A stretch of DNA of 64,000 nucleotides. It comes from Rhytidiadelphus loreus (taxonomy: Eukaryota > Streptophyta > Bryopsida > Hypnales > Hylocomiaceae). This document shows positions 23,271 through 57,718 of this stretch, one piece after another (the first letter of the stretch is position 1; every line of letters starts with the position of its first letter). Where the stretch lies: assembly GCA_947034895.1 (NCBI GenBank), contig OX344764.1:20460001-20524000 (forward strand), in the 5' to 3' direction. Position numbers and translations under genes: made by a program. The notes beneath the pieces were generated by a model. That model was given only the letters and a program-made list of their open reading frames with translations, searched no databases and was not told the origin of the DNA.

Positions 23271-26200
23271 ATCGGCGAACACAACCAGGTTCTAGTCCTA
23301 TGATAGTTTTCTACTCTACCGGGTGTTTAAGCATCAATCCATTGTGCCTTCCAAGCAATAGATCTTTTTTGCTAGCTCGCTAATCGTGACTCTCTAATGG
23401 TGGTCCTAATTGATTCCTATAGTGATTATCTTGCTACGTCATGTTTTGTGGTTCCTATTTCTAAAGTTTACTCTATTATCCTAAATGTGGGAGATCATCT
23501 CACGCCGTTTCTAAAAACCTAAGGCTCGTTCAAATTGGACTCTCTAATCACCCGCCATGGGCGGATGAAGTTTTGACTGCGAAGCTCTCAAACTTCATCC
23601 ATGGTTTCCTACGGGCTTCCCAATTCAATTGAGGGTGAAATTTTACCTAAAGACCTGACTCCCTACTTTCTAGCTAAATCCTAAGTTTCTACTTGTTTGG
23701 ATGAAATCTCCACGATTTCATTCGTTCCGGGTCCTAAACTTCATCCGTTAATATCTCGGTCGTCCTAACTCCGATTCCTAAGTGTCTTATGTTTTTGGAA
23801 ACCTCTCGGAGTCTACTCTAAGCCTATCTACTCTAATCTGACCTGACTTGGACCTAGCAACATCTAGCTCTTGGCCTTCCTATGTCTTTGGCCCCGCCGG
23901 GAGGTGGGGGAATAGTTAGTAGTTTACCCCGGCGTGGAAGTCCGTCTCCAAGCTTATTGCACCTCCCCCTTTCTCCATGGCAAGCGGTGAAGGGCGACCT
24001 CCTCCTCCAAACTAGTGAGAGCGGTTATTGATCCTAGTGGCTGAAAGATGAACCGTCCTCCTTGAAGGAATTCTTTTTCCTTCTCTTCTTAGTCCTCCTC
24101 AACCCGTGTGCCCCATTAAAGGGGGTCAGTTGGGGCGCACCTCACTTGTTTTGAAAAGTCAAAGGGCCGGTTAACTACCACTTACGCCCGGAGAAAATGC
24201 CGTGCTCGTAAGTTTTCTCCTAATGGAGGGAGGGATTCCCCCCTTATCTCCACTATAGTCTCTTCTTCCTATCTAAGCTTTCATCACCTCCTTTCTTCTT
24301 CCATTCGAAGGTGGTTGCTCGTGGTTGTTTTTGCAAGGGAGTGGTAGTGTTGCTATGGCGTTGGCGTGACTCCTTGGCCTTGACTAGCTTTTAGTTACCC
24401 CATGCGTGTAGGCAAGCCTTTGTATTGTCTTCTCCACCCTATGCCTCCACCCTTGTCTTCCTATCTCCTCGTTAGTTTCTTTTTTCCCCCTAGCTAACTC
24501 TATCTTTTAGCTTAGGGCCGCCCGATTTGGAGGGCTGAAACCCAACCCCGCAAGCTGAGACCCCTCCCCTGGCAGCTGAGACCCAACCCAACAGACTGAA
24601 CCCACCCCGCAGCAGGACCCCTCCCCGGTGACTGAACCCAACCCCGCAAGCTGTACCCTCTCCTCCGACTGAACCCCACCCGGTAAACTGAAACCCCACC
24701 CAACAGACTGAGACCCTCACCCGGCAGACTGAAATCCTCACCCGGCGGACTGAGACCCCTCCTCGGCAGTTGATACCCCGACCCGGCAGACTGAGACCCC
24801 CTCCCCGGCAACTGAGCCCTCTCCCGGCGGTTGAGCCCTTCCCCGTGGACTAAAACCCCACCCCGACAGACTGAGACCCTCCCCGGTGACTGAGCCCTCT
24901 CCCGGCGACTGAGCCCTTCCCCATGGACTGAGACCCCCCAACCCGGCAGACTAAACCCACCCCGCGAGCTGGACTTCTCCCTTTGGACTTTTTATGAACT
25001 ATCGAAGCACAATGGCTATTACTAAATGGACGGTAGGTAGACTCTCCTAGACTTGAGTGACCGTTTTTTGGACGCTAAACTTTGAATAGTTCCCAAATGT
25101 TTGGGAAACTAAACTTTGGAACTGGCCACGAGGGGGGTGCAAGACTTCGCCGTCAATTTGGTTTTAACACCAAATTTAGGACTGCCGCTCCCTAGAGGTT
25201 CAAAGCTCCGCCGTTTGGTGAACGTTTAATACACAATTTAGGACTGAACTTGGACAAGGAAAGGTGGGGTTTGGTTGCCCCGGGGGGAACTACTCCACTC
25301 TTTTCCAAACACAACGAAAAGACTTGGGGCAATGCGAAATAAGAGACTTGGTTAGTAATGGAAGTAACGCGTGGTTAGTAAAAGGAAGGTTAGTATAACA
25401 TGGAAGACATAAAACTAGAGGCCCACCAAAGCGGCATCACCAAGGTACAGTGGAAGGTGGCTCTAGGGTTAGTAAGGGACATGCAAGAAGGACAATTGAA
25501 GATACTTGGGTAGAAGTAAGGCCTTCAAAGAACACGCAAGAGTTTACAAAAGCAAAAGGGGAAGGGCCTCCCACGGACCTTCAACACTAACAATGGAATA
25601 ACAACAAAGAAAGGAGCAAAGTGCTCCAAAAACACCGTGGGGAGTTTTGGCAAACACCAAAACATAAAAAGAGGTCGGACCCACAGACCCAAAACAAGTA
25701 TTAGGGGTGTTTTGGGAGAGAGAAGGGCCCCCTTTTATAGGTTTCCAAGGGCCCACTCCCCCCCTCGACGAGTAACCTCATCCATCCGAATTTTCATCCA
25801 AATTTGAGATTTTCACCTAATTTTGGATTTTACGCTGGTCCTAACTTCTAACTTTTGGAGTTTAACTCGAAATTGCAAATGGATTGCGCCAATGGCTTCA
25901 GAATGCCATTTTTAGCCTAAAGGCCCCCTACCCCCTATTTCTATCACAAAAAAACCATTGGAAACTAGTGCCAACTGGGACCAATTAAAAGGGTAAAAAC
26001 CTAACTTTGGGGGTTTACCTCTTTTGGCCTGGGTAACTAGCTAGGGTTGTTGGGGAGACTCTAGGGAGTAAGAAAAAACTCCTTGATGTCTTCGTTCCGA
26101 CTTCATACGCTCCCGGGACGCCGGTCAACCCCGCAAAGATCCTACCGTAATTATTAATTGGGGGAATCTTGTCAGTTTCGGCTGCCTCCCGCTATTGGAA

Positions 26201-27001: not shown

Positions 27002-30000
27002 ATGCCTACAGAAAAGCTCTTAAATCCAATTGTTGAGTTATCTAGCGACTCAGAGGATAAGACACCTAGACTTAGTCATCATTCTTCTACACCCTCGTGC
27101 CTTCCACAAGCATCTAGAATGGTGTCTACACCCCAATCCACCTATGTGTCTTAGAGCAGTCCTTCTACTTCTCATTTATCACACCTTCCTCTCTATCCAA
27201 TAGATTGTGATGTTTCTAGTGTAATGAAGTGTCTTTGTAAATTATCTTCTATTTGAAGGTGCCAAAATGAGCTTGCTAATATAGACTTTGAGTGTATCAA
27301 GTTCCAAAAGGTCCAATATCTTTCATCACATTTTAATGGCGACATTGTTTTTGAATTGCCACCGTGTCGCTCATCATCTTCCTCGTCTTCTTTTAAGAAC
27401 ATGAATGGAATGGACAAGCACTATAATGGTTACACGTGGTGTCGTACGATTACATCTAATATTCACAATGACTTAGGTCTGAAGTTCAGAAAATCAACCT
27501 GCGTAGGTCACTTGGCATGCATTAACCCTGCGTGCGATTATTTGAAATTAAAGATCATCAAAACGAAATGAGACAGAGTGGATGGGTAACACAACGACTC
27601 CATTTCACCTTGGACAAATTCCTCCAAAAGACTCTACTTTAGCTTGCAAGGTTTGTAAAATATCTCTTGCTTGCATCAATTTTTGCGAAGGTAGAATTTA
27701 GTATGTCTTCGTTGGCTCATATATGATAAGGGCTTGCATTCATCTAGGTAGTCACATGCACCCTGTTGCAGATGGTCTATGTAGAAAGTCCCTAGACACC
27801 ATATCAAGTCTTATTGCACGGGAGGTAGAAAAGACACCTATTGCTAAAGTATCGGCCATTGCTTTAGCAGCTAGCAAAGAATTCCTGGACACATTTCTCA
27901 TCAACATGGGTGATGAACCTAAATAGATGCTATGGGGTAAGGCTCTAGATGACGTTATGGATAAGTTTCAAGTCCTTAGCTCTCCAAATATTCAAAATAT
28001 CATTGCTTCCTTTCGTAGTAGCGGGATTGGAGGAGGGGAGATTGATTGCCTACTTGCAATGAAGAAACAAGCAAAGATTGAATTCATTCATGACAGCGTA
28101 TTTCCTGGCCAAGGACAGAAAAAAGTATACCTTTTCAAGATGCTAGTTGATGGACCTGGAAGTGGGGTGGATCTTGTTCAGCGAATGCAACCGGGTGGAC
28201 ATCTTAAGAATTGTTGGATCATGTTTGACCATGTCAAACGTGTGAAGAATTGGACCACTATTGCTTGCCAAGTATACAATTCTAGCTATTGCAAGGTCAT
28301 GACCATTGCAGTGTGCAATATGCAATTAGAAGACACTACAAGACAAGTCATCATGTGGAGATGTTTGAACAAAGTGATGGAGGAAAACGGTGTGCCTCAA
28401 CCAAATTTCAAAGGCTTCATGGCGGACAGTGCTCAAGCCAATTGGAATGCTGTTCGAATTGTTTATGGCTCTGGTGATCCATCCATGAAGATGAATGATC
28501 GTGAACGCACTTTCCTCTTTCATTGGGCTACATCAATGAAGCAACATACAGAGAGGCTCATCAAACGAGAGTTCCAAAGACAATACATCAAACTTTGCAA
28601 AGACTACAAAGATGCAAAGAATTTAGAAGAAGCCGAGAGCAGATACTTACAGATCAAGGCATGGTAGTACTCCTCCAGTGCAACAACGGTGGAATCCCTT
28701 CGTGAACTTGACTTGTGGTTGGCATTTTGGCATTTTAGGTATCGTCAATGGGGCGGTTTCATAGAAATTGTAAGTATTCTAAACTTTTGTGTTTTAATTC
28801 ATATTGTAAGGAAACTCTATTTAATGTTAATTTCATCAAATCTTTCTAATATCGCATCTTCCAGGATTTGTCATTGGAGGAGTTGGCGGATATGCCGTCT
28901 TGCAACCTTTCGGAAACCATTCACAACAAGTGGCTTCAAGCGTCTGGAAAACATGGCACGGACTTATATGTGGCAACATGTGATGATTGGATTCGAGCTT
29001 TCATGCAAATGACAAACTATCAGTTGTATCTCAATGGTGGCCCTTTGGGATTTGGACCATTCCGCCATGACTTGAAACTAAAAAGAGCAGTTGCTTCAAT
29101 GGATGGTAAGAAAATTACAAATGCTCTCTGCAGTATACCCGGTACTAAAGATGTTTGCACGAGAATTCCCCACTTGGAAAGGGAGGACGTTTTTGGTTCA
29201 TCAAAGTGGAAGCTTGACCTACCCATTGGTTCTAAAGGTGATTCTCATCGCCCGGACAAGGTGAACTTTTCACATCTATGAGTGCAAACTAGATCTGTTG
29301 AAATTTCAGTACCCAATATGGTAGATGTCGTGGTAGATGCCACTTTGCCAACAACACATGTGAAGTATGTTTTAGAAACAGACTCTGACACCTCTGAATG
29401 GCACATTGCTCGTATTTCTGTGAAGCCAAGGAGAAAGTGCCATGCCCTTCAAGCACAGACAGAATTGAAGTGTACAATGTTCATAGTTAGGGGCTCTAAA
29501 GCCACTGTTGCCCCAACATATAAGGACCAAAAGCGTGAGTTCAAAGGCTCAACAATAGAGACGGATGAATTTTGGTTCTATCCGGATGATATCACGCGTT
29601 GCGTGATGGGTCCAAAAAGGTCTCACATTCTTAGTCGGCCCTAGATTCTTCATATATGGCCTGTGTTTATTGGTACTAAGCTTACTACCAATGAAATTAT
29701 ACTCTTTGAAAAAGCAAGGTTCCGCCTCCAAGAACAACCATCCTTGTCTCTACGATGCCTATTCACATCTTCAAAAAAATTTGAGCCTTTGGTTTGGACT
29801 CACCCAAGACCACCTCATGCTGATAAACCTCCGTGTATTCACAATGGGAAGGCCATTTGTAGGAATGACAAGGTGCCCACAGATGATCACCGCAACCAAT
29901 GGGAGAGTACTAGGAATGTGACTGGAACCATTCTTGGAGTCAACATTCTACCATATCCAGGACTTGGGGCTATCATTACTCTACAATCAGGGGTGGAACC

Positions 30001-38433: not shown

Positions 38434-39139
38434 ACCAGGAATATGATCCTAGAGAACCAATCATCTTCTATATGAGCCAAAGAAGCCATGACACGCTCAT
38501 CCCTTGGGAAAGAACATTCCTTACAGAATTCCTAAAGTTTCCTTGAATCCAAGTGGAATTTTGCAGCCCTTCAAGAATGTAATCTAGACTGGTGTCGAAT
38601 ATGTAAGAGAATCATATTCAAATTTTAGAATACATTATAAAATTATGTTGTCTGTGCGACAAATAACGGGACTATTAGACGTCATTTTGAACATACAGTA
38701 CTAGATGCCATGTCTGTCTGTTTGGGAAGACAACGTAACCCTAGACTGTAGCTGTAGGTTAGAATTCAGGCAAATAGTTTCAATTCAGTCACAAGATGAA
38801 TTACAAGATACGGCGGAGTTCTCAACTATGAACATACCAGATTTGCGAAGAATCGCAGGCTGACGGAATCACTCGCTTACAAATTAACTCAACCGCAACT
38901 GCCGCAACAAGAATTAATGGCCAACGTCAGAGTGAACAAATTTTCCATGAAACGGAGTTTCGATTCCATAGTGAACCGAATCGCATTTTCATACAACATC
39001 AGGAGTTGCTAAATTTCTTGAGTTTTAAGCTAATGTAAAACTCAAGGTATTGTAGTCAATGTGAAACTCTGTTTTTGAAATGTCGAAATGTAGCAACTCC
39101 TGATTTCGATATTTAGAAACTCCTTCGGATTGAACATAA

Positions 39140-39501: not shown

Positions 39502-39815
39502 ATTTCAACATCTTCTCAAGGAACGTGCCCAAATGATTGAGCAATATCCTATTTTCTCTGGATACATTTTGAACACGCCATCTGATTCCATTCCATTCGG
39601 GAAGAATCCAATCGATCATCTCTTTCAAGCTGAGGACTTCCAATTTCCCATGAGACTCTCGCACAACCTGATTCCAATTTCCCATGAGACTCACGCACAA
39701 CCTGAATCCAATCATAATCCAATCTCAATCCAACTTCAATCACAAGTGACGTTCTGCAGCTTATATTACGCCATCCCTGCGAGCAGAATTCAATAGACAA
39801 TAGAAACCTGGCAAG
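39502..39815 (+). repeat. Left arm of inverted repeat flanking the shc island
   Basis: This stretch is related to the reverse complement of 43,651-43,928. Shared words include CAACATCTTCTCAAGGAA, TTTCTCTGGATACATTTTG, CGATCATCTCTTTCAAGCTG and ACTTCAATCACAAGTGACGT. It contains a local tandem duplication (39,638-39,705) of TTCCAATTTCCCATGAGACT plus CGCACAACCTGA. Its inner edge is about 100 bases from the bacterial DNA. Confidence 0.85.
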
Positions 39816-39913
39816 TCCAAAAGGTGACTGAATTGCATGCATTCAGTTGAATGTCCGACCAGACTGCATGAATGACTGAGGCTGTTGTTTGCAACTGAAG
39901 ATTGAAGCAAAAG

Positions 39914-40045
39914 TCGGGCAATCCTTACCTTAGCGGAGATTGGAACGACAAGGGCTTGCCCGCAACCATCGAAGGTGCCAACCGGTCCGGCAACACATCA
40001 GCCGAATTTGTGCTGCATTCCAGAGCAACAGAAACCGTAAGATGA
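39914..40045 (+). pseudogene. hpnE: 3' end of hpnE (squalene-associated FAD oxidoreductase)
   Basis: Read in the frame ending at the TGA of 40,043-40,045, this gives NPYLSGDWNDKGLPATIEG followed by an RSG-like stretch and a short tail. That matches the conserved C-terminus of bacterial HpnE, which in this family reads as a GDW..GLPATIEG..RSG motif closing the FAD-binding fold. HpnE completes squalene synthesis in the bacterial HpnC-D-E route. Only about 40 codons remain. The upstream DNA is AT-rich and plant-like, so the break lies near 39,915-39,930. The stop codon overlaps the shc start as ATGA, a typical translationally coupled operon junction. The remnant is too short to be functional. 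Confidence 0.78.
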
Positions 40046-42012
40046 CCGATACCTTGACAATGCTGGCCCCGGCACGCACCGGCACTGAGAGTTCGCTGGA
40101 GGGGCATATACGCGCCGCGACCGACGCCGTCCTCGCCGAGCAGAAGCCGGACGGGCACTGGGTCTACGCGCTCGAGACCGACGCCACCATCCCCGCCGAA
40201 TACGTGCTGCTGGTACACTACTTCGTGGAGACGCCGGACCTCGAACTGGAGCGCAAGATCGGCGTCTACCTGCGCCGCATCCAGGGCGCGCATGGCGGCT
40301 GGCCGCTGTTCCACGAAGGTGACTTCGACATGAGCGCGAGCGTGAAATCTTACTTCGCGCTCAAGATGATTGGCGAAGACATCAACGCGCCGCACATGAA
40401 GCTGGCGCGCGAAGCGATTCTAGCGCGAGGTGGTGCGGTCAAATCGAATGTATTCACGCGCGCGCTGCTGTCTCTCTGGAGCGTGATCCCGTGGAAGAGC
40501 GTGCCGTTGATGCCGGTGGAGATCATGCTGCTGCCGCGTTGGTTCCCGTTCCACATCGACAAGATATCCTACTGGGCACGCACCGTGATCGTGCCGCTAC
40601 TCGTGCTTCAGGCGCTCAAGCCCAAGGCGCTCAATCCGCGTGGTGTCACAATTGACGAGCTGTTCCATGAGGACCCCAAGACGGTCGGCGCGCCAGTGAA
40701 GGCGCCGCACCAGAAATGGTCCTGGTTCATCGGCTTCCGCACCATCGACATCGTGCTGCGTGCCCTTGAGCCCTACATGCCGAAGGACTTGCGCAAGCGC
40801 TCCATCAACAAGTGCGTCGCGTGGGTCACCGAGCGTCTCAACGGCATCGACGGGCTTGGCTCAGTCTACCCGGCGATGGAAAATTGCGTGAAGATGTATG
40901 CGGCGCTTGGGTTTCCGCCGGATCACCCGAACCGGAAGATCGCGCGCGCCGCGCTCGACAAGCTGCTTGTCATCACGGACGACGAGGCCTACTGCCAACC
41001 AAGCCTCTCGCCGGTGTGGGACACCTGCCTTGTCGCGCATGCGCTGCTTGAAGCCGGCGGCGAGAAGGCGACCGCAGCAGCGAACCGCGGGCTCGATTGG
41101 CTCAAACCGCTCCAGATTCTCGACGTGAAGGGCGACTGGGTCGTGCAGCGCCCGAACGTGCGACCCGGCGGCTGGGCGTTCCAGTACAACAATGCGTACT
41201 ATCCCGATCTCGACGACACGGCCGTCGTCGCGATGGCGATGGACCGCGTGCGCGGGGAGCGCGGCAAGACGTTCGACGAGTCAATTGATCGTGCGCGCGA
41301 ATGGATCGTCGGACTGCAGTGCGAGGACGGCGGCTTCGGCTCCTTCGATGCCGACAATGCGTATCACTACCTCAACAACATCCCGTTCGCGGATCACGGT
41401 GCGCTGCTCGATCCGCCGACGGCAGATTTGACCGGACGCTGTCTTTCGCTGCTTGCACAACTTGGCGAACGTCCCGCAACATCAGAACCCACGCGGCGTG
41501 CAATCGAATGGCTGCGTCGCGATCAGTTAGCGGACGGAAGCTGGTACGGCCGCTGGGGCATAAACTACATCTACGGCACCTGGTCGGTGTTGTGTTCGCT
41601 AAACGCTGCGGGCGTAGATCCGAGCGATTCGATGGTGAGAAAGGCCCGCGATTGGCTGCTTTCCATCCAGAACCCGGACGGCGGCTGGGGCGAGGATGGA
41701 ACGAGCTACAAGCTCGACTACCGGGGTTACGAGCCTGCGCCGAGCACGGCGTCGCAGACGGCATGGGCCTTGCTTGCTCTCATGGCGGTAGGAGAGGTGG
41801 AACATGCGGCTTGTGGACGCGGCGTCGCATACCTCGCTCAGACTCAAGGCAAAGATGGCCTGTGGTCTGAGCAGCGATTTACGGCCACAGGATTTCCGAG
41901 TGTTTTGTATTTGCGATATCACGGATATCATCGGTTCTTCCCTCTGTGGGCGATGGCGCGCTATCGCAACCTGAGGAGCGGAAACAGTCGGGTGCTGTCC
42001 TTGGGTATGTAG
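40042..42012 (+). CDS. shc: Bacterial-type squalene-hopene cyclase, intact and intronless
   Basis: The product is 656 aa from the ATG at 40,042, a normal length for bacterial SHC (about 630-680). It cyclises squalene to hopene/diplopterol as a membrane-associated enzyme. Visible hallmarks: an N-terminal QW-type repeat with DGHWVYALETDATIPAEYV; the catalytic DxDD motif as DLDDT at residues 389-393, with the general acid Asp present; QCEDGGFGSFDADN; WYGRWGINYIYGTW; QNPDGGWGEDG; and the family C-terminus TGFPSVLYLRYHGYHRFFPLW. No stop, frameshift or intron is seen. The start is chosen because it overlaps the hpnE stop. A longer frame upstream to 39,940 is only the open overlap with hpnE and lacks an ATG. 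G+C is far above the surroundings, and the codons are of GC-rich bacterial type. The closest resemblance from memory is alphaproteobacterial SHC. No plant promoter or polyadenylation site could be assigned, so expression is unknown. Confidence 0.95.
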   Translation: MTDTLTMLAPARTGTESSLEGHIRAATDAVLAEQKPDGHWVYALETDATIPAEYVLLVHYFVETPDLELERKIGVYLRRIQGAHGGWPLFHEGDFDMSASVKSYFALKMIGEDINAPHMKLAREAILARGGAVKSNVFTRALLSLWSVIPWKSVPLMPVEIMLLPRWFPFHIDKISYWARTVIVPLLVLQALKPKALNPRGVTIDELFHEDPKTVGAPVKAPHQKWSWFIGFRTIDIVLRALEPYMPKDLRKRSINKCVAWVTERLNGIDGLGSVYPAMENCVKMYAALGFPPDHPNRKIARAALDKLLVITDDEAYCQPSLSPVWDTCLVAHALLEAGGEKATAAANRGLDWLKPLQILDVKGDWVVQRPNVRPGGWAFQYNNAYYPDLDDTAVVAMAMDRVRGERGKTFDESIDRAREWIVGLQCEDGGFGSFDADNAYHYLNNIPFADHGALLDPPTADLTGRCLSLLAQLGERPATSEPTRRAIEWLRRDQLADGSWYGRWGINYIYGTWSVLCSLNAAGVDPSDSMVRKARDWLLSIQNPDGGWGEDGTSYKLDYRGYEPAPSTASQTAWALLALMAVGEVEHAACGRGVAYLAQTQGKDGLWSEQRFTATGFPSVLYLRYHGYHRFFPLWAMARYRNLRSGNSRVLSLGM

Positions 42013-42034
42013 CAGCCGAGGGGTAGGGGACGGA

Positions 42035-42083
42035 ATGATCATTGTGGTGGGAGTGGCCTTCAAGGCACGCATCGCCTCGCTTC
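42035..42083 (+). pseudogene. hpnG: Probable 5' end of hpnG
   Basis: An ATG 22 bases after the shc stop, preceded by a purine-rich GAGGGGTAGGGGA stretch that would serve as a ribosome-binding site in bacteria, opens MIIVVGVAFKARIAS. This resembles the N-terminus of HpnG-type hopanoid nucleoside phosphorylases (VVVG..FEARIA). Sequence from about 42,086 on (TGGGAATATTTTCAGCTC) matches a plant repeat at 44,648, so the bacterial DNA stops within the first 15-18 codons. Identification rests on a short segment and on the known shc-hpnG order, so it is moderate. Confidence 0.6.
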
Positions 42084-42085
42084 GA

Positions 42086-42345
42086 TGGGAATATTTTCAG
42101 CTCATTTCTCATACAAAGAGAAATAGATGCAGAATGTAACACAAGTTTTTTCATATTTTTCAAAGCATTATTGAATTACTCATGAATTTCAAACGAGTTG
42201 TGACCCAATGTCTTTCATAAACTATTCACTTGCAACTTGTAAAGAGAAATTGGGAAAGCAAGGAGAATGGTTGGCTCTTGCAATAAATAATACGGAGTAC
42301 TTTTTTTCTCAATCCATTCAATGACTATAGAAGTCAATTGAAGGA
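42086..42345 (+). repeat. Dispersed direct repeat, copy 1
   Basis: A diverged copy of 44,648-44,905. Shared text includes GCTCATTT, CAAAGA/GAAATAGAT, CATTCAATGA, AGAAA-TGGGAAAGCAA and GGTTGGCTCTT / GATTGGCTCTT. It begins at the right edge of the bacterial island. Confidence 0.8.
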
Positions 42346-43650: not shown

Positions 43651-43928
43651 CTTGCCAGGTTTGCTTTGCAGGGATGGCTGACCAAGCCAGCAAGGCGTAT
43701 TATAAGCTGCAGAACGTCACTTGTGATTGAAGTTGGATTGAAAGACGGAGTCAGGTTGTGTGTGAGCCTCATCAAAGTTTTGGGAAATTGCAAGACCAGC
43801 TTGAAAGAGATGATCGAATGGTTTCTTTCCCGAATGGAATTCAATCAGTCGGCACTTTCAAAATGTATCCAGAGAAACTAGGATATTGCTCAAACATTTG
43901 GGCACATTCCTTGAGAAGATGTTGAAAG
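43651..43928 (-). repeat. Right arm of inverted repeat flanking the shc island
   Basis: Reverse-complement relative of 39,502-39,815, with substitutions and small indels. It lies about 1.6 kb beyond the bacterial DNA, so the island is not centred between the arms. Confidence 0.85.
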
Positions 43929-44647: not shown

Positions 44648-44905
44648 GTTTCTTGTTTGGGATTATTTTAGCTCATTTTTCAGACAAAGAAAAATAGATT
44701 TTGATTGTAATCCAAGTCGTTTTGTGTTTTTTGAAGCATTTTTCAATTACTTATGAATTTTCAAACAAGATGAGTCATAGGTCCCTATTTTTGACCATAG
44801 GTCTTCCATAAATCGTTCACTTACAGCTTTTAGAAAGAAATGGGGAAAGCAAAGCAAATGATTGGCTCTTACAATTAATAATATTTTTTTTATTGATCCA
44901 TTCAA
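44648..44905 (+). repeat. Dispersed direct repeat, copy 2
   Basis: Diverged copy of 42,086-42,345, ending about 25 bases before the CACTA transposon. Confidence 0.8.
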
Positions 44906-44928
44906 TGAGAGTAGAAGGCATTAGAGAA

Positions 44929-44931: not shown

Positions 44932-45855
44932 CACTACAAGAAAAAGGGGTCTTTCACAACCAACTAAACAATGAGTTCCTGTCCTAAATGACTGCCAAGC
45001 AACTGGGACTCTGTAAATGCACCGGCAGTGCGAAGTTAACATAGAAGTAGTTTCTTTGCAGTCATGGAAATGACTGAAGGATGAGGATTGAACGATCGTA
45101 TGCCAAAGACTGCATTCATCCACGCATTTCTCGATGAAGAAGCCCTGATAACTATGACGTGGACCTCAAAAACTAAACGTAGGAATGAACTTAGTTGTAC
45201 ACTAGTGTAGCATGCAGAATTTGTTGAACATGTATGACTCTAGAAATTAGTGCGGTTTTACAAGAAATGGAGTAGAAGATGATTATATCAACAACTTTGT
45301 GTACAAGATTGTGTGCATCCGTGCCTTTTCATTGATGAAGCATCTGTAGTGAGGACGTGTAGGTTACTGTTTCAGACTTTGAATTCACGCAGTTGTAGAA
45401 CAGTAGAACATCTCTATGTTCACCATATATGACTCCAGAAATGACTACAATAGTACTAGCACATATATAATTCCAATGTACATTGGAAATGCAGGCTTTG
45501 TTTATTGTACGTGCAATTGTTGTTTGTTTTAACATTACTTAACATTTTAAGTTTGAATGAACAATGACTAAAATTGAAAAGTCTTTTCAAATATATCAAT
45601 GCATATGTGGTTTAGGCAGTGTAAGCTAACATGGTTGCACCTACAATGTCTCTTGTTCATGACTACACTTAGAAACACACATGGTCCTTTTTTCGTCAGT
45701 CTGTACATGGTGTTGCATATAATAGAACCTAGTTTGTCCAAACATAAAATACTCTACATATACAGAGGGACAACAAGTTCACGCTTTTGATCAGAAGTCA
45801 TTTTATATAGCAAAATTGAAGATGTTCTTCAGAGTCTCTATACGACGAAGTTCTT

Positions 45856-48800
45856 TCAATACTTTGCATGTGCTAATAAATTATCCTCTGCAGAAAGATC
45901 TATGGCACCAATTAAAGAGGCTACTTGTGGTGGGGGAAGCACAACCTCCGGAGCAATTAGACCAGAAGTCTCCATTGTTGTGGTTATGAAAACATTTGAA
46001 GTGTCTACGACCTCCCTCTTTGCCCGAGCTTCTTTTGATAATACTACTTTCCAACCAGGTTTCCTAGGTACATCTGAATAGAAGACTTGTGTGGCTTGAT
46101 TTGCAAAAATGAATGGCTCTGACATGCGTGATAATTTGTGACGGAAATTCACAATCAAAAATCCAGCGTCGTCACGGATGTATGTTGCATTACCTCTATT
46201 GTCATGTGTCTTGATCCATTCACATCGGAAAAGAATAATCGGCATATGCAGTGGTCCATAATCAAGCTCCAATATGTCTTTTAGAACGCCAACGTAGTTT
46301 ACAGAAACGTCCCAAGCACCCGTAGTTGGAACTTGGAAAACTGAAGCTACGCCACTATTGTATGTTTGGAATCGACTGCAGTCTCCATCGTCTACTCGAA
46401 AATGGTTCCCATAAGCTGTCATTCTTGTGTACCGAGTTGCTTTTTGTGAAGGTTTCGTACTCAATAATAATCTGTCCATCTCTTTCTGGTTTGTTACATT
46501 GAAATCTGAGTTCCGTACCACATTCTGCACCCACTCTTCTAATGGTTGAATGTTGGGATCATCGTCATGTTTGGACTTCCAGTTCCTGCAGGTACCAATG
46601 CAATCACCATCAACAAATATAGTTCACTGCGTCTTTAACTATATTTCTATTAGGGAAGACAATATTGGACCTCTACAACACCCTTCCTCAGTGGTGCACT
46701 CCCCTGACAATTACTTTGATATCACTGGCAGTTTGGTACAAGTCATTTTTCAGTCACTATTTAGTTCTATGCAGTTCATTGGCCTTCCACGCTGACTACA
46801 GACAATCTTTTACAAGACAGTTGCAACAACACTGAGCACTACTATTCCACTTCGGGCTTTCTCTGTAGCAAAAATGTACTCTGCTGCAAGTGTTGATCTA
46901 AAATTGAAATAGTCCTATACATGCCTTGTTAAACAGTATACTCTCCCCATCCAACACTTACAAAAGGTAGAACTACGACTTACACATAGAATTCTTGCAT
47001 ACAAGATATGTTTGACAACACATAGCGATGGGCTTCGTCTCGTAGTGCTGGGGTCATGACATATGGTTTGCCTGCACCTTGTAAGACCTCCTCTGCATCA
47101 CCATATTCTTCGTCGGCATCCCACACACGGCGTTCTGTGACATCAAATGTTTGTAGGTACTCTGTAATGAATCCAATGCATTCGTCCTTGAGGAATCCCT
47201 CCGCCATACATGCTTCAGGCCTAGCATAATTCCTCACATAGTTCTTCAATGTCTTCATGTATCGTTCGACTGGATACATCCACCTTGTACTAACCGGCCC
47301 ACATAAGTCTAGCTCCTGCACAAGATGATAAGGGTGATGTGTCATGATGTCAAAGAAAGAGGGGGGGAACTCCATCTCTACCAGTGCCATGCTCTCCGCG
47401 ACATCAGCTTCGAGGGATGCAAAATCAGTTGGATTGTATACTTTAGTGCATAGTCGACGGAAAACTTTGCTCATTCTCATGATTGCCATCCTTGGTCCTG
47501 GCTTCATCAAATCTCTAAGTGCTAGTGGCAGTATTTGTTGCATTAGGATATGATAATCGTGTGACTTTAGTCCACCGAAGTTCTTCTTCCGTATGTGCTT
47601 GCCCAAGTCTGATGAATAGCCAGTCGGAGTCTTCAATGACTCAATGCAGTTAGCAAAAATTTCGAATTCTGCATTAGAGAGCACGTATGATGCTTTTGGT
47701 TTCACCATTTTTGCAGGATTCTTTGGATGTGGGGTCAACCACAAGTGCCCGGGGAGGACACTCCCTATGTTTTAGCAACCTACGTGCGGCAGAAAAAGTA
47801 AAACAAGTAATACACCTTAAAATTTAATTTCTTTTTCAAAAAAAAAATTATGGATAGATTTTACTACTTTAGAAGTTTATGTTTTGAATTATTGGTATTT
47901 TTTTGTGCTAATAGTAATTAGTTATAAATTTTTGAAGAAAAAAGATACACTGTAAAGCTGAAAATAACTTTCACACCTCTATATTATATAAGAAAAAAAT
48001 TTTGAAAAATGAAAAAAAAATTATATAGAATAGCTTTCTATTGAAAGTTTATTTTGGTTGAATATTTATGCAATAGTCATCTTCATGTGAGCTCTATAAA
48101 TATTTTAGTTGGAGAATATGCCATTTTAGTTCATTTTTCAACCCTTTCTAGACAATATATCTTATGTTATTTGGAATTGAATTTTTTGTCAATAGAAACC
48201 TTTAGTCATTGTTAAACAAAGCTCAAAATTTTAGAATGAAATTATAGTTTATTCAAGGTGAATTACATGTATTACTTTTTCCACCGCCGCACGTAGGTAC
48301 CCCAAATGTAGTGAGAGTGTCCTCCCCTAGCACAAGTGCTTGCGTATATTACGCCTTTGTAAGTCGCGTCTAACTTTCACTGTGTCTTTTTTCCCAGTGA
48401 TGGTCTTCAAAAAAATTTTGGACAAATTCATTTCGCAATGCATAGGGTCTAATGTGTTGCGAATGAGCAAGTCCTGCACACACTACAACAAAAGCATCAG
48501 GATTTTTATCAACATACATGCGTCCTGATTTCACTGTCATATACTACCTCATATGCTGAAGTCCATGCCTTACAAGCAAACAATGAATGAGTCCTACACA
48601 TCTACTAGTTCCGTTACAGTCATCCTCATCTGTAGTAGACCTATCTTAAGACTACAAAATAACTTCGTCCTAGTTTCATGTTAGTTGTGTAGTCACATTC
48701 TAGTGATATGAGAGTCTCTCTATCCACCTATATCACTGACTGCCTCACATCCTTGCAAACGAAGTGTGGGCTTGAAAGACACTCTTTCCACTATGCAATT

Positions 48801-50676
48801 TTTTTAACCTTGACATTCATTGAAACACCCACATGCAAAGTTCAACCTTGTATTCAATAAACTTTAAGAAACAACATTGACAGCAAAGGATGAAGTCAAT
48901 GTTCCATGCCACCTTCCAATAAGGCAATGTATGTAGGATGCTTGTACGCTTGACGCCATGTACTTTGGATGGGTCCCCTAGTGCACCTTCTCGATTTCCA
49001 GCTTGTTTCCACGCCTTATACTCCTCTGCATGTTGAAGTTGTTCATCAACTGTGACCGCTCTTGGTTTTGCACGATTCTCCATGAAACCATTGAAATTAT
49101 CTTTCATTTCAGGTGACCTGTAGTTGTGACCTGTAGGCAACCACCGCCTACTTCCACCAAATGTTTGTTTTCCCAGCTCCACTGAATGCTCTGTGTCTAG
49201 GTCTGACCCGCAGCAAGGACAAGCAGCAAAACCTTGATGGGAAAATCCTCCAACCATGCCATACCCTGGAAAATCATGTATAGTCCAAATCAACATTGCT
49301 CGTAGTACAAAAGCTCTTTCATTGACATCCTTTGTAATGTCATATGCCTGAACTCCTGTCCACAACTGCAAGAACTCCTCCACAACAGGCTCCAAATATA
49401 CATCGAAGACTTCGCACGTCACTGATTGTTTTCCCGGAATTAACAAGGCCAACATGACAAAAAAATTCTTTGTACTCAACCATGGTGGCAAATTGTAATT
49501 CAGTAGTAGTACAGGCCATGTGGACCACGACGATCGATTTTGTTTGAAAGGGTTGACTCCATCGGCAGCCAAAGCAAAATGAACATTGCGAGGGTCATTG
49601 CCAAAAGTGGGATCAACATTGTCGTGGAAATGCCGCCAAGCCTTGGAGTCACATGGATGACGGACTAATCCATCTCCACCTTCTTGGTCACTCCTGTTCT
49701 CGGAATGCCACAACATGAGTTTCGATATACTAGGGCTCCTGAACATTCTTTGTAGTCGTGGTATTATTGGAAAATGCCTCAGCACTTTGATTGGGAATTT
49801 TTTGCGCTCCTCATCTTTATACCTTGGCCCATTACACTTGGGGCATTGCATCATGTCCATATACTTGCCTCGGAAAAGCACGCATCCTCTTTCACAGGCA
49901 TGTATGGTATTGTATGCAAGGCCCAACTTCTGTGTCAATGACTTTGCAGCATGGTAGTTCTTTGGCAAGCAATTCTTCTCTGGTAGAAGGTGACCACATA
50001 AGATGGTGAACAACTCATCAGCAAAGGCATTACTCACACCATGTACCATGCAAAGATTCATAAGCAAGATGGTAGCAGCCAATTTTGTGCACCTCGCCCC
50101 ATTGTACAGTGACTGAATTGCCTCCTCCAACTCACGAGGATCATAGTTTTGGTCTTCCGGCATTCTTTCACCACTTTGGAGAGGAGTTGGTTCATCATCT
50201 CCAATGTCTTCACCCTGGTCATCATTGCCCATCAGTCCGGCGCTGCATTCTTCATGCACTGAATCGCCTGCCATGAAGGCATCAGCTACTTCCTCCCGAA
50301 CTCTATGCTCTATAGTTTCCATATCCTCCTCTTGCGTGAAGGCATTTTCCACCATCCCCCGCGTGTCAACATGGACATCTACCTGCACATTGTGATTCTC
50401 ATTCAGACCCCAATATGCTTGCTCCCACTCTTCATCAAAAGAGTCTCGATTTCCAGGACCCCTCCACACCCTGAACTCTGGATGTCGGCCATTTTGGATC
50501 AGGTGCTCCTTCACGGTCTTTATGAGGAATCTCTTGCGCCCTTGGCATGCTATGCACGGGCAATGCAATCGTGTGATGTTGAATTGGCGAGCTCTCTGAA
50601 GCTCTCGAATCCAAAGGCGATCATCTCGGAGACGTTCCCTACGCAAATCCGACAAGGGTAGGCGTGCAGGTAACAT
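45856..50676 (-). pseudogene. CACTA TNP2 transposase, interrupted by a MITE
   Basis: Exons on the minus strand: 50676-48913, 48473-46984 (interrupted) and 46585-45856. Intron 1 is GTGGCA..GTGCAG, phase 0; intron 2 is GTAAGT..CTGCAG. Excluding the inserted MITE and one copy of its target duplication, the reading phase is consistent throughout and would correspond to about 1,130 aa. Domains in order: Transposase-associated (DDRLWIRELQ..HCPCIAC), TNP2 (CPKCNGPRYKDEERKKFP, then LMLWHSENRSDQEGG), exon 2 with DLLIRNTLDPMHCEMN, DUF4218 (GGLKSHDYHILMQQILPLAL; MYPVERYMKTLKNYVRN) and DUF4216 (PFIFANQATQVFYSDVP). This is the standard plant order. The start is the first ATG in the open frame. Its product would bind and cut the element ends. 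The insertion splits exon 2 just before HLWLTPHPKNP, so this copy is probably inactive. Confidence 0.93.
47749..48330. mobile_element. MULE-like MITE inside the TNP2 gene (582 bp)
   Basis: Identical 9-bp flanks CACAAGTGC lie at 47,740-47,748 and 48,331-48,339. The ends read CCGGGGAGGACACTC and, inverted, CTAGGGGAGGACACTC. A second shared block, ACCTACGTGCGGC then AAAAAGTAA, gives TIRs of about 60 bases. The interior is AT-rich and non-coding. The 9-bp duplication and long TIRs fit a Mutator-type MITE, of a family different from the GCTAG-ended MULEs to the left. Confidence 0.93.
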
Positions 50677-52109
50677 TTGGTCCTTCTTGGTCAAAGCTGA
50701 ATTTCAATTAGACGTCCTCCACAGATACACTTGAAGGTGGTCCTCTGCACAGAACTTTGAAAAGACAACAAACCACAAATCAATACATGTGAGTTGGATG
50801 GCAAGAAAAGTTTACAGTTGTTACTACTTTGGAAAAGTAATATGATGGGTGGTAGGCGCTAAGTATTCATTGGCTACCTAATGCAACTAGACTATGACTG
50901 TAATGACTAATATTGTAGTCATTGTATACAATCTATATTCACTAAGGTATGACTCCCTTCAATCATACATCTCTTATCATCTGACTCCGTTTGCCAATGG
51001 AGCCATAAAAGTGTTAGAGTGTCCCAGATATTGTGGACATTGATAAGCACACCCAATAAAAGAAGTCTAACTGGAAAATACAATATGTACGAAAACAAAT
51101 AGCACATATGCAACAAATGAATTACAAATGTGATGAAGCAATGAATGTGCAACTAATAAAACGGACCTAGCTATACATGCCCCTGATGAAAGGCAAGTTG
51201 CAGAAGATGCAAGAGAACATAGAACATATTCTAAGTGCCATGAAAAGAAGATGTTTTGGCAGCAAAAGGACCATAGAAGACCATGATGACATTGTGAACC
51301 ACCTATTTGCAAACTAAGAAGATGTAAAAAAACCATTTTGATTTTCCACAAAAATGATCAAAGAGGTAAGAAAATGAAGAAGGAAGGAAAGAAAAAATTG
51401 AATGTAACTCATTTGCATATACGAGGAAAAGGACAATGTGTTAGAAATAGGAAGATCTAGACCACAAACTCCTTCACTATAGCCATGAACAACAAATGTC
51501 TTTCACGGAAAAGAATAAGGCAAAGCAAGAAATGCATAGGGAAAATTGAATACTATTGCTGTAGTATTCTGAAGATACCTAAGGTTACAACATTAGTGGC
51601 AATGACATTCCATTGTTGCTCATAGGTCATGCAGTTTCCTTGCCAAATTCAGCCTCCTGGAACAATGGTTTGATGAAAGAAATGTGTTCTGAAGTTGTAG
51701 TTTTGATGTATATTTTCTGCAAAATGAGCAAAATCGAGGCAGAATCGTATCCATAACAAGATGGAAGATCTGCATGAACAAGAATGTCCCATCAACCATG
51801 ATAGGCCATTAATTGCAATATCTGCAAGGAGATTTGGGGCCGTCTTCCTCTCACCTTCATATTGAAAACTATTGCCTCCCTTGGCATAAGTAGGGAAACC
51901 GTGTCCACTATAGAAGCATGCCCGTGACCCATAAAAACCCTATTAAGTCTCCCCACTTTGCAAAACAGCGTCTCCGAAACCCTGGCCCGCGGACATCCTC
52001 CGTGCTTTGTGCACCAACGTCATAGTAGAGTGGTAGCTACTCCTTGTCTAGTGAATAGCAACGCGTCCCTGTAGAATAGCCACATTAGGGCACAAGGGAT
52101 CACATTGAC
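50677..52109. promoter_or_regulatory. Central divergent promoter region of the CACTA element
   Basis: About 1.4 kb between the two divergent start codons. It must contain the 5' regions of both genes. No TATA box or operator can be assigned with confidence, and short frames in it are not gene-like. Confidence 0.4.
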
Positions 52110-55100
52110 ATGGAAGAGTGCGATGTGCAAGACGGTGAGGAAACGAAGACATCATATGAGCTTTTCAGAGACCAGTGTGTAGCTGAGGTGAAGGAGGCCG
52201 CCAAGCCCGCTGAAATCGCTGCAGCACATTTGTAAGCATTCTCCTCCAAATCCGTAGAGAGAATGCGTTTCTTGCAAATGGTGGCGTCTGTACAAGTTTC
52301 TAGTTCAAATAGTGCATTTAATTCAATAATTCCGTTAAAATGGTGATGTAGTCATATTGCAGTAGTTTCCCCTTTCTTTGGCAGTCAAAGTATATGACTG
52401 TAGAGAGGGCTATAGTTGCCTGTCAGTAATTATCTAGTTATAGAACTTGAATATTAGAAGGAGGAGTCATTTTTCTGGACAAGTGACCTCGTACTCGACA
52501 CGTAGCAGTAGATAGGGCAGGAAGACGTACCTACGCCGTCACTGGCGGCAATAGGAACCCTAACTTCTGTGTTTACGATGGGGAGCCACTCGTATCGCGC
52601 AGTCCGTCTCTTCTTTCGTAGTGTGTATCCAAATTGTTGATGCTTCATACTCTCGCATGCTTGATTGTATTTAGTGAATTGTACATTCTTGCTTGCACAG
52701 AAGGAAGTCTCTCGCACCACGGAAGCAGTTCAAAGACGTTGTGAAAAACAAACCCGACGGCCACAACGTACGAAAGAGTTCTAGGTTGCATGCTGGAAAT
52801 CGGCTTCGTGAAGGATTGAGGGGCAAATGCAGCGACGGGAAACAACGTCCTACGCAGACAAGCAAAATGAGTATTGACGCCGAGTCTGTCTCCGCAGACA
52901 CGAAGACCAACGAGGAGGCCATTGCAGCAGGTATGGTGAATCTAGCAATAGTATGTGCAAATGTTCAAAGGAATGCGACCTCGGAGGTCATGCTTGCAGG
53001 TAATTTGACAACTCGTAGTCCTTGTGACCTTGTGAAGTTGTCCTAAGTTTAGGGTAGGGATTTAGCCCTCTAACTTGGTAGTCTCCAATGCCAGTGCTCA
53101 CATTCATGGAACACTTCCATAGTATGCTGGGAAGTTAGATTTGTGGTTTCTTAGTTGTACTATAAAGTTTCCAATCAAAGTACAATGTGATGGAATAGAA
53201 TTATCGAATGCCGCATGCATTTCAGAGCAATGGATGAGAAATTCTTGCGGGTGTGATTGTAGGGAAAGTTGGTACAAAGGAGAAAGTTTTCGACTCTGAT
53301 GACGATGACTTGGAGCCTGTGGAGGCTTCCTGTGACAGTAGGCAGAAGCGGAAGACAGCGTCAATAGCCATCAGATCCCCGACTAGAACTCCTCTTTGTC
53401 ATGCAGGTCCATCGAGTGGGGGGAGCTATGGAAACTCTTGGCATTGGGTGCCTGGTCAATGGATGCCACAACCGGCCTTGCAACCCCCACCATGGGGCAT
53501 GGGAGCACCTCCGCCGGCTATAGCTTACACAGAGAGGTGGCCGTCAGATTCGCAATGCCACGATGGAAACCCTACAGCCGAATTGTCTCCAGATAGTGCA
53601 ACCAGAGCATGTCGACGTTACAAGCAGATGCAGTACGAACAAGGTAGCCGTGATCGGGATAGAAGGGGGAGAAAGCCACACCGCATTACTGTTAATGCAT
53701 CTGGAGAAATTGACGGGGGTTGTGAGGGCAAGAACGCATGGGACACTTCAGTGCGTTCATATGTGCCAAGGATCCTTGACATGAGTGTCATTGATTGGGA
53801 GAAGCAGAAGCCCGAGTCAGTGAAAAAATTGAGAGACACCTTGGATAGAGACTTTGAATACATTGGCCATTCGTTGAGCATGCTTGGGTTCAGAAATGCC
53901 ATCAAGAGATTTCTGAAGACAGAGAGGTCAAGGCTGAAAGCACATTTCCTAAGTGGCAATGAAGATTGCCCAATTCATGTGGACCCGCATCAATGGGAAG
54001 ATCTGCAGGAGTATTGGCAAACAGACCAACAACAGAAGAAATCTGCAACAATGGCACATGCAAGGAGGCAAGTAAAGAATTATTCAACTGTCGGTAGAAA
54101 AGGAAAAGCAGGGAAGGAAGCGCTATTGGTAAGCAATCACCCGGCTAGTACTCTTGCTTGAAGTCATCGGAACCGTCCCTATGACCTTCAACTTGCATTG
54201 CTTCTTGGAAAATGTATAGTGTTGAAAACAGTTTTTGTTGACATCTTCTAAACGCAGGTGCACCAGAAACAGGGGAAGGACATCAGCCCAGGAATTACTG
54301 AGGTAGCCGAAGCAATGCAATTGTCGGAAGCCCATGTGGCACAAGCATCAGTAAGTTCTTCATTTGTACCTTTGCCATCTAGCTATGTTGTATTTCTTAT
54401 ATTATAGTATCTTACACTAACGCCACCACACTATTAATAGTAGATCTAGAATTATATATATCACGGACGAAGCCACAAAGGTGGTGCTTGCTATAACATT
54501 TCTAGATTACATATACTAGTACAGAAACCCTGCAGTTGTTACTCATGTAGTTATGATGCAGTAGTGACTAGTAGGACTCCAGAAGTATACCGTCATATGT
54601 TAGTTGTATTACAGTGACGTAGTCATTCCATAGTAGTGTTGTACTCTCATCAGTCACCGATGAATACTTCGTAAGTACTGACTTTGTGCGCGCGTTGTTT
54701 TGGTTGTTGGGGACATTAGGTTCTAACTGTAGGTGATTCGGCAAGAATTTGTACCATAGAGAAAACACAAACTGACCTTCTGGCAAGCACAGCAGCTAAC
54801 AATCGTGCACTGGAAGAGCTCAAGTCTATGTTTAGTGCTTACATGGGGAGATTCAAGGGTATTGATTATGGCTGCCCGTCAGTGTCAAAGTCTACCTTAG
54901 AAAATGCAGTTCTTGTCGAAAACCAAGCAGAGGTGGAGGCCGCCCAAGTGATGCCCGATTCTTCTCCAGAACTTCTTGCAATAGATGATGTTGTAGCCGA
55001 GCACGGACCTATACAAAACATGACTCCAAGTAACCTTCCGTTGGAATTGGAGATGCATGATTGTGCCTCAGCTGCAGCCCCTAAAGAAGAGAACGTAGGT

Positions 55101-56946
55101 GAAGAGATGCAACGAGCTTCAGAGGGAAGTTCAGCTCAAGATTGTAGGCTTGCCGCGCCTATCAGGTCTATTGTCAACGTTTTGCCAGTGGAGCCCACCG
55201 TAGTCGCCCCTCTATGCAACGCTGAAGTACATGTTGAGGTAGTCAAGGACCTGTCTGAGCCTGACAATGCAGCCCCTCCTTCAAGTGACGGCAATATGAA
55301 GAAAGGCGAGGTAGATGCAAAAATCAGACCAAGTTATTCAGAGAATCCTTATTCTCTAGGAGGGAATGTGGAGGGCATCATAAATACTTCGGGGAAGCGC
55401 ATAGAGGCTCAGAGTATGGAACCCAATCCTTCACCAAAGAAACAGAAGAGAAATCTGAAATCAGCCAACGAGGTAAATGCCCGAGCAGTAGTCCCTCTTA
55501 GGTCGGATCAAACAACAGTCAATGGAAAAAATTTCACTTTGAAAGCACCACATACAAGGGGAAGGGAGAAATTGCTCATTTTCAACGTTCATGGAACCTT
55601 ATTGGATTGTAGCCTACATGTAGACAGGAATCCAAATCCCAAAATTAGGCCAACCTTGAAAACTAAGACACGACGAGTAGTATTGCGGCCTTGGTTACAA
55701 CAATTTCTATCACGGTGTTTCATTAAGTTTGCAGTGGCATTTTGGGGTAGTAAGAGTCAGTGTTACATGGATGAAATTGTACCTACAATGCTGGAAAGGC
55801 AGAAAGGAGGCCCACAGTTATCTCCATTATTTGTATGGTCAGCCAAAGATTGTGAGGTTGTAAACTTTGAAGATGGAACACCATTATTTGGGGGAAAACC
55901 ATTATCTAAAGTGTATGGACAGTGGCCCTGTTTTAGCCCATCGAACACCTTAGTCATTGACAATAAGGGATGTAGAGTGGCTTGCAACCCGGCTGCAAAT
56001 GTAGTGATTAGCACTCCATTTTATGTGGAGCATTTGGCGAAGTTAGGTGATGACATGAACTACTTGAAGTGTTCATTGTGGCCAATGCTGGAGGCATTGC
56101 ACGCATCTACAGATATTGCACATTTTCGATCACAGAGTTCCGAAACTATTCATCATTCTGTGACTACAATGCATGAATTGATTGGGAATGAGGCCACAAT
56201 TGACAATTCGGACACTGTAGAAGGTGAGGGGATTTGCGACCCAAGTGGTTCCACTTTGTGGATGTCCCCTCACCTTCATTTGAATTGCAAATCTGACATG
56301 GAATTGTTGTGCTTGTAGAAAAAAGCGGGGAGGCGGGATACAAGGTCGAAGACCACAGCGGTGGAGGAGAAGAAATCTGAAGCAGGTGCCCAGAAGGTAA
56401 AAACCTAAACCAAAACCCTGTAGAAATAGGAGTGTGCACTGAATTAGAAGATTTTTATGGTATTCTTGGCAATATCATGGAGATACCTCTTAACTATAAG
56501 TCTCTTTTTCGGAATGACTAGGCAGTCAATACTTTGACTATACACAGTCATTGTGGAGTCATATTTCAATTACTACTATTCCAAGTGAATGCATTAACGA
56601 CTAGCCAGTTAAGCATGCATTTTGAAATTCTGTATTATCCATTGAGCTAACCCTCTAAAGAAATATTTGTGTGGTACAGTTCTGCATGGGAGATGAAGTT
56701 TTCCTCATGAATCCTCGCTCCATTAGGCAGAAAGTGGCTATGGGCAACATTAGTGGCATAGGAGGGGTGGACAAGTTCCACTTCATGGACATCCCAGATT
56801 CATGGTTCAAGGTAGATGTAAGGGAGGTTCTACAGCCAAATGTGCAATTGATGTTCCCCAACGAGGATGCAGAGCAGGTAAAAATGGAAGATGTGAAAGG
56901 CAGCAACGCATTGTGGGACCAGAAGTACATGAAATTCACCACCTAA
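52110..56946 (+). CDS. TnpA-like CACTA protein with embedded degenerate FCP1/NIF domain
   Basis: Seven exons: 52110-52231, 52701-52999, 53263-54128, 54258-54350, 54720-56223, about 56319-56396 and 56680-56946. Most have strong GTAAGx donors and matching phase; the exon 5/6 join is ambiguous by one or two bases, and the acceptor at 54,719 is chosen because it keeps the frame open. Product about 1,075 aa. Exon 3 resembles plant Transposase_24/TnpA (SYVPRILD..W, then VDPHQWEDLQEYW and a basic GRKGKAGKE). Residues ~745-920 form an FCP1/NIF-type HAD domain: VVLRPWLQQFL, AVAFWGSKSQ, PLFVW, KPLSKVYG, NTLVIDN. The nucleophile motif DxDxT reads NVHGT at 749-753, so both catalytic Asp are lost. The last ~89 aa (GDEVFLMNPRS..) match the C-terminal domain usual in TnpA-like proteins. 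Likely a DNA-binding partner of the transposase; the role of the pseudo-phosphatase is unknown. Confidence 0.85.
55540..56100 (+). other. Degenerate FCP1/NIF (HAD phosphatase) domain segment
   Basis: This sub-region of exon 5 encodes the HAD-like fold within the TnpA-like protein. In active FCP1/SCP enzymes motif 1 is DLDET-like, with the first Asp as nucleophile and the second as acid/base; here it is N-V-H-G-T. A conserved Lys (KPLSK) and a motif-4 Asp (VIDN) are still visible. The frame is open, so the change is not simply decay. The protein may bind a substrate or partner without catalysis. Confidence 0.75.
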
Positions 56947-57718
56947 TGTTCAATTACTGAAGCTGTAGGTATACGGTAGTTTTGGTATTGCTAGAAGTGG
57001 TCTCGTAGAAGACAGCATAATCTGAGTTCAGTAATTAGTAGAGGGTCCTTTAATTTTGGTTTCATGAGGACAAGACCCCCAGGAGTTTTTTTTAGGGAAA
57101 TGACTCTACAAAACTAGTTGTAGTCATTTACATTTGCGCTCATGTTCTTGGTAGTTGTATGTAACTAAGGCAGTAGCTAGTCTATTACCTATATATTACA
57201 TCAGCATGCTTTTTGCTTGAGAGCGCTATGAAAGTAAAACTATTATATTACTCATGTCCAACTATATTGTTACCTCTTTGCAAAAATAACTTCATGAATG
57301 ACTTTGTCACAACCAACACTATACTCCCTTCTGACTACATGAAAACTACAGAATACTTGCATTGAAATCCAGACGCCAGCCTATCAAAAATTGCCACGTA
57401 TGTCTGTCAAAGTGGGACCCACTAAGAGTCATACTGAAAGAAAAAACACATATATGACTAAAATAAAACTGAACACCAAAAGTGCCAAGTCAAATAGCCA
57501 CTGCCACGTAGGCTACTACCTTTATGCCACATAGGCAAACTCTGTTGATGAAGATCCATGTAGGAAGATGGATTGTGACATTAGAAACGTAGTCATTTCA
57601 ATAAAGGACTTGTCCACAATGACTACAGTGCTCAAAATTCTGCAGAAGTCATTTGTGTCCACAATGACTGAAAACTTAGTCATTTACGTAGTCAAAAAAC
57701 CCTGAAATTCTTGTAGTG

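Follow-up and report, generated by a model that had tools for sequence, protein, structure and literature searches.

The shc gene and the remnants of its operon neighbours

We analyzed a window of 64,000 nucleotides from Rhytidiadelphus loreus (C4:20,460,001-20,524,000, in a searched assembly of 407,041,205 bases and 489 contigs), which carries on its plus strand an intact squalene-hopene cyclase gene, shc, at 40042-42012. The encoded protein (SHC) is 656 amino acids long and bears the DLDD motif at residues 389-392. Against the TIGR01507 equivalog model, it scored 741.4 bits (cut-off 431.1) over residues 20-645, as a full-length SHC does, and both SQHop_cyclase domains were found with Pfam; the two-domain alpha-barrel fold of class II cyclases and the catalytic motif are kept. 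The GC content was 0.62 in 40,001-42,000 compared to 0.36-0.40 in the adjacent kilobases. The intact frame, the model score and this GC contrast bear out an earlier note on this DNA, which had described an intact bacterial SHC gene in a GC-rich island of AT-rich plant DNA. Bacterial loci used for comparison included L001 (VBAH01000022.1) and L002 (PLJS01000142.1), to which the DNA of the window shc is 80.7% and 78.9% identical, together with L003. Named bacterial relatives were at most 81% identical and a metagenome protein, P0001, was 86% identical.

On both sides of shc, we observed pieces of its operon neighbours. The 3' end of hpnE and a spacer occupy 39914-40041 (plus strand), with the frame at 39917-40039. 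Read across 39,911-40,045, this frame matches the last 31 positions of HpnE (400-430 of the 430 in TIGR03467) with an E value of about 2.9e-9, in agreement with the HpnE C-terminus that had been proposed 5' of shc. The score of 36.7 bits lies far under the cut-off of 283 for a full-length gene, and this piece is a relic, no gene. On the other side, the bacterial shc-hpnG spacer at 42013-42034 (plus strand), aligned to L001 and L002, is followed by the 5' relic of hpnG at 42035-42079 (plus strand). Compared with the DNA after shc, MIIVVGVAFKARIAS scored 56 (L001) and 54 (L002), and none of 2000 shuffles reached either score, which upholds the claim of about 15 codons of an HpnG start with an ATG at 42,035, after a gap of 22 bases. 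In both L001 and L002, the gene 3' of shc passes the TIGR03468 cut-off and is HpnG; the same model gave no match on the 28-residue window translation, in which about 15 codons align, well short of a full-length HpnG.

The alignment with alphaproteobacterial hpnE-shc-hpnG DNA covers 39,911-42,080 and spans both intergenic gaps (39,910 to 42,075 for L001, 39,913 to 42,079 for L002), while L003 matches the window only in 39,957-40,016 and in shc itself. Among the best 80 of at least 592 confirmed bacterial shc loci, an HpnE tail was present upstream of shc in all 80, the lowest score being 84. An HpnG-like start 3' of shc scored at least 30 in 74 of 79 of these loci, of which only nine exceeded 36, the score of the best shuffle. 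The earlier note had made its operon claim depend on the flanks matching hpn genes, and the two flanks are the HpnE tail and the HpnG start.

The bacterial match ends at 42079 and a dispersed plant repeat begins at 42085/42086, so the right junction falls within 42080-42085. This repeat (42086-42341, plus strand) is 72% identical to 44658-44925 and has further copies on C4 and C3 that begin at or near the same point. To the left, plant DNA adjoins the insert at 39828-39913 (plus strand). After 39,872, the first ATG is the one at 40,042, and an AATAAA is present downstream of the insert at 42,282. Plant-type open reading frames near the insert were recognized with Pfam as Transposase_21 (tnp2), DUF4218 and DUF4216, which lie within 45,856-50,694 in minus-strand orientation; a further frame, at 54,828-56,318, is of the NIF-type phosphatase kind. 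These transposase-related pieces and the phosphatase frame are enclosed by 44932-57718, which has CACTA-type ends flanked by matching 3-bp AAT; 13 of 20 end bases are alike, no better than in other listed pairs, and the segment is possibly a gene-carrying CACTA element. Elsewhere in the window, GC-rich minisatellites stand in AT-rich DNA at 17689-18677 (units of 63-64 bp) and 24572-24964 (units of 18-78 bp), and a frame of 246 amino acids at 27927-28667 gave no Pfam match. The window contained no Rfam match at the gathering score and no tRNA.

Three copies of shc and tests for selection

A six-frame search of the genome with the window protein gave six matches among 10 scored candidates. Three are intact full-length SHCs: the window copy, a second one on the same 75.1-Mb contig (C4b, C4:19,900,734-19,902,701, 90% identical) and a third on an 84.8-Mb contig (C3, C3:23,029,214-23,031,181, 88% identical); the remaining three comprise a broken, distant one at C4:15,900,286 and two short ones. 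Each of the three intact proteins is 656 amino acids long, with 65 residue differences between window and C4b, 77 between window and C3 and 72 between C4b and C3. For the same pairs, the share of differing sites between the genes is 7.4, 8.4 and 7.5%, and all three alignments are free of indels over 1971 bp. All three copies carry the DXDD acid motif as DLDD, in an invariant alignment column. When residues were mapped on the SHC of Alicyclobacillus acidocaldarius (AacSHC, 1sqc), which is 37% identical, its F605 corresponded to Leu in two of the copies (window and C4b), and Y609 to Phe and D313 to Asn in the C3 copy.

The surroundings of the copies are shared in part. The plant DNA that adjoins the hpnE tail on the left is common to the window and C4b (39828-39923 matches C4:19900468-19900562, 96 bp at 82%), and further blocks from 37,062 onwards are common to both. 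The window and C3 have a common right edge, formed by the hpnG remnant (reduced in C3 to about 11 aligned bases) and then one and the same plant repeat. In the locus alignment, C4b has no hpnG piece, and C3 carries unrelated DNA left of the equivalent of 39,952, within the hpnE tail. A stretch of 54 bp between the plant flank and the hpnE tail of C4b is missing from the window; as a candidate for further hpnE sequence it was not significant, 130 of 500 shuffles being as good. The HpnE frame of the two paralogues is closed by a TAA located 17 bases (C4b) or 18 bases (C3) ahead of the shc ATG. The window copy has lost this ancestral stop, and its frame continues to a TGA that overlaps the ATG. 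The ATGA overlap of hpnE and shc reported earlier thus exists in the window, but it is not an inherited operon feature, since both paralogues keep the earlier stop.

The plant block at 38,434-39,129 differs by 6.5% between the window and C4b, with 10 gap events, which is less than the third positions of shc. The divergence of the shc copies and their different relic losses do not support a very recent transfer; the earlier note had proposed a recent one.

As a separate observation, the first of the two short matches, at C4:20,535,302 and about 33 kb right of the window shc, reads as an oxidosqualene cyclase exon (TIGR01787, 5.9e-20; best solved relative, lanosterol synthase). The second, at C4:19,914,742 and about 12 kb right of the C4b shc, falls within a duplicate of this oxidosqualene cyclase block (94.7% over 5.3 kb), the block being inverted. 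This exon and shc could possibly form a triterpene gene neighbourhood.

To evaluate selection, we fitted a purpose-written codon model (not a standard package) on 655 codons, with L001-L003 as bacterial relatives. The omega value after duplication was 0.243 compared to 0.106 elsewhere, and omega=1 was rejected (LRT 101.6); as omega is 2.3 times the bacterial value, constraint is relaxed. Relaxed selection along the whole window branch was seen only with the paralogues and not with distant relatives (omega 0.092 versus 0.11). Taken by copy, omega was 0.19 for the window, 0.31 for C4b and 0.24 for C3, and omega=1 was rejected for each (LRT 44.7, 15.3 and 21.2, respectively). Among the differences between the window and C4b genes, 41, 26 and 79 fall in the first, second and third codon positions (79 of 146 in the third).

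The hpnE relic was compared in the same way. Over the 89-90 bp of relic and spacer common to all three copies, we observed 13.5, 11.1 and 9.0% of differences, and the C3 relic (94 bp) has two small insertions versus no indel in shc. A faster decay of the hpnE relic than of shc is thereby weakly shown; a stronger figure (12-22%) was withdrawn, as the C3 stretch had included unrelated DNA. At alignment columns invariant in the 80 bacteria (the best 80 of at least 592 loci), the window copy departs in 4 of 16 for the hpnE tail and in 11 of 223 for shc, ranking first of 81 for both, which we take as a sign of residence outside bacteria. Such changes are more frequent in the hpnE tail than in shc (p=0.012; with looser thresholds, 0.030 and 0.037). 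As only L001 and L002 are close among the 80, part of these changes could already have been present in the donor group.

We also observed an elevated rate of change in the protein. In relative-rate comparisons with P0001, 46-61 changes were found in the window only and 18-25 in P0001 only (p from 1e-6 to 0.013, with 10 of 10 outgroups); among 10 other sister pairs, an imbalance reaching about 2 to 1 was likewise seen in two, P0047/P0006 and P0048/P0044. Among 199 full-length proteins, the window copy has the largest number of changes at invariant columns (6 of 159; rank 1, or rank 4 at the 95% threshold), and it is second of 52 in the closest group. Where at least 98% of relatives agree, 30 columns differ in one copy or more, including D313N in C3, and some SHC copies may be impaired.

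Several signatures of nucleotide change were considered. A methylation-type CpG decay, which would have marked residence in a methylated genome, looked positive on a first count (21 of 288 CpG versus 3 of 155 other C) and disappeared on counting both strands alike (34 of 394 versus 26 of 389, p=0.35; the range given by 69 controls includes this result); the three copies together also gave no CpG decay (39 of 1231 versus 41 of 1699, p=0.25). The GC3 of the window shc is 0.772, compared to a mean of 0.830 in the 80 bacteria (best 80 of at least 592 loci). An AT-ward drift was not retained either, the share of GC-to-AT changes placing the window only 14th of 70 lineages, itself included. Over 40042-42012, the window lineage has the highest G-to-T change rate of 70 lineages.

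The raised omega, the changes at conserved columns and an hpnE relic only slightly more diverged than shc are what would be expected if the copies were dead insertions drifting to pseudogenes. Such a fate is nonetheless unlikely, given the rejection of omega=1 for each copy, the third-position excess and the lack of indels in the three pairwise comparisons. Purifying selection thus appears to hold all three copies: with an omega of 0.24 and neutrality rejected copy by copy, shc would be domesticated, whereas the earlier note had taken it not to be an anciently domesticated gene.

Origin of the insert

A local inverted duplication surrounds the insert, with a left arm at 39503-39815 (plus strand) and a right arm at 43651-43927 (minus strand). 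These arms, the CACTA proteins at 45856-50694 and the presence of shc copies on two contigs would be compatible with a shc cassette spread as cargo of a plant transposon, either bounded by the arms or lying inside a CACTA element. We regard this as very improbable, since no significant target-site duplication was found at the arms (57 of 400 random flank pairs were as good) and the right arm has no separate counterpart beside C4b in the 40 kb compared. In addition, among the eight best CACTA-type end pairs, the one with the 3-bp duplication (44932/57718) excludes shc. Terminal inverted repeats with target-site duplication were not found around shc, and a TIR transposon carrying it was rejected.

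Trees were calculated from 72 of 201 aligned rows, from 37 rows and from 26 rows, selected as close relatives and outgroups. In the 26-row tree, the three copies form one clade (100/99), apart from the 23 other rows. Its sister is P0001 (96/91), inside a group with the alphaproteobacterial L001; we took P0001 as bacterial because its branch is short. The window gene stands on a plant scaffold and is nested among bacterial sequences, as a nuclear SHC acquired from bacteria would be. Three separate transfers from related bacteria could leave copies on two contigs with no single flank common to all three, as observed. The single clade and the plant-side sequences shared on the left (window and C4b) and on the right (window and C3) make this reading very improbable. 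These same shared flanks and this clade suggest that one insertion, followed by duplication to three copies, is likely.

Next to no weight can be given to an assembly chimera or a contaminant contig joined into the plant scaffold, a worry of the earlier note that the abrupt edges of a GC-rich bacterial island in AT-rich DNA would feed, as it is strongly contradicted by two further diverged intact copies in the same genome sharing its plant-side junction sequences; moreover, the window copy leads the 199 proteins compared in private changes at invariant columns (rank 1, or rank 4 at the 95% threshold).

The right edge of the insert coincides with the fixed end of the dispersed repeat. Since the other copies of this repeat begin at or near 42,085/42,086, the edge may mark the place where the repeat landed in hpnG before the duplication, and the insert may at first have contained more of hpnG.

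Overall, the end of hpnE, shc and the start of hpnG aligned through both gaps, among plant-type transposons, sustain the earlier proposal that contiguous bacterial genomic DNA was inserted. We consider it highly probable that one contiguous piece of an alphaproteobacterial hopanoid operon was inserted once in a plant nuclear chromosome, and that duplication of shc then gave three intact copies, which appear to be held by purifying selection and would cyclise plant squalene to a hopene-type triterpene. As portions of three genes came in together with the two gaps between them, the entry would have been as DNA and not as RNA. The donor would have been a bacterium living near the plant.

Possible role of the cyclase and comparison with known systems

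Since squalene is already made in plants for their sterols, SHC alone is enough to form C30 hopanoids. The product of hpnG acts on the hopanoid side chain. If the plant SHC is expressed and uses the plant's own squalene, hpnE and hpnG would be useless to the plant and hence cut to pieces, and shc was probably retained for an enzyme useful to it. Passages of PMC5462960 assign hpnE to squalene synthesis. The changes at and near the active site (F605 to Leu, Y609 to Phe, D313 to Asn) could change which products are formed and allow differences between the copies.

The transfer of a bacterial SHC into ferns, mosses and liverworts is already published (PMC6786969). Passages of that work describe the SHCs of these plants as possibly separate bacterial transfers (Li et al., 2018) and report hopene, diplopterol and tetrahymanol in Salvinia. 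On the same passages, the present case is similar in having a bacterial-type SHC in a plant nuclear genome, with squalene as the likely substrate. It differs in that parts of both operon neighbours survive here, that three diverged copies exist and that the nearest relative found is the 86% identical metagenome protein in an alphaproteobacterial group. With the alphaproteobacterial hpnE-shc-hpnG loci (L001, L002), the insert shares gene order, spacing and about 80% DNA identity over shc, but of its neighbours the tail of HpnE and the start of HpnG are left, its shc evolves faster and it is embedded in plant DNA. Another eukaryote with a horizontally acquired SHC is the fungus Schizosaccharomyces japonicus (Shc1), where, according to the abstract, hopanoids mimic sterols; this abstract mentions no operon relics (PMC11976957). 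Our literature search, covering titles and the starts of abstracts, found no plant SHC with operon relics.

The distant match on C4 is a GC-rich relic at C4:15,900,229-15,901,220, two stretches of which show 29-39% identity to the window protein (E values of 1e-18 and 5e-6), with two weaker stretches nearby (0.015 and 0.18), stop codons and frame changes. Its two pieces score 49 bits each against TIGR01507, compared to 23 and 44 bits against TIGR01787, so that the SHC model is well above for one piece and only narrowly for the other. A reasonable reading is that this relic represents an older SHC, which would have decayed once the newcomer was in place. More tentatively, an older broken SHC might have been swapped for the one from the alphaproteobacterial operon, which grew to a three-member family whose active sites diverged for different triterpenes, the torn neighbours marking a single DNA insertion; we regard this fuller account as possible but doubtful. 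If an older SHC was replaced, plants would have taken up the same bacterial function repeatedly.

Reports of bacterial genes in plants usually concern the bare gene, and its route of arrival is guessed. Here, the relics of both operon neighbours and their differing states in the three copies would constitute an internal record of the insertion, in which contiguous DNA entered, the useless parts were lost and the useful gene was kept.
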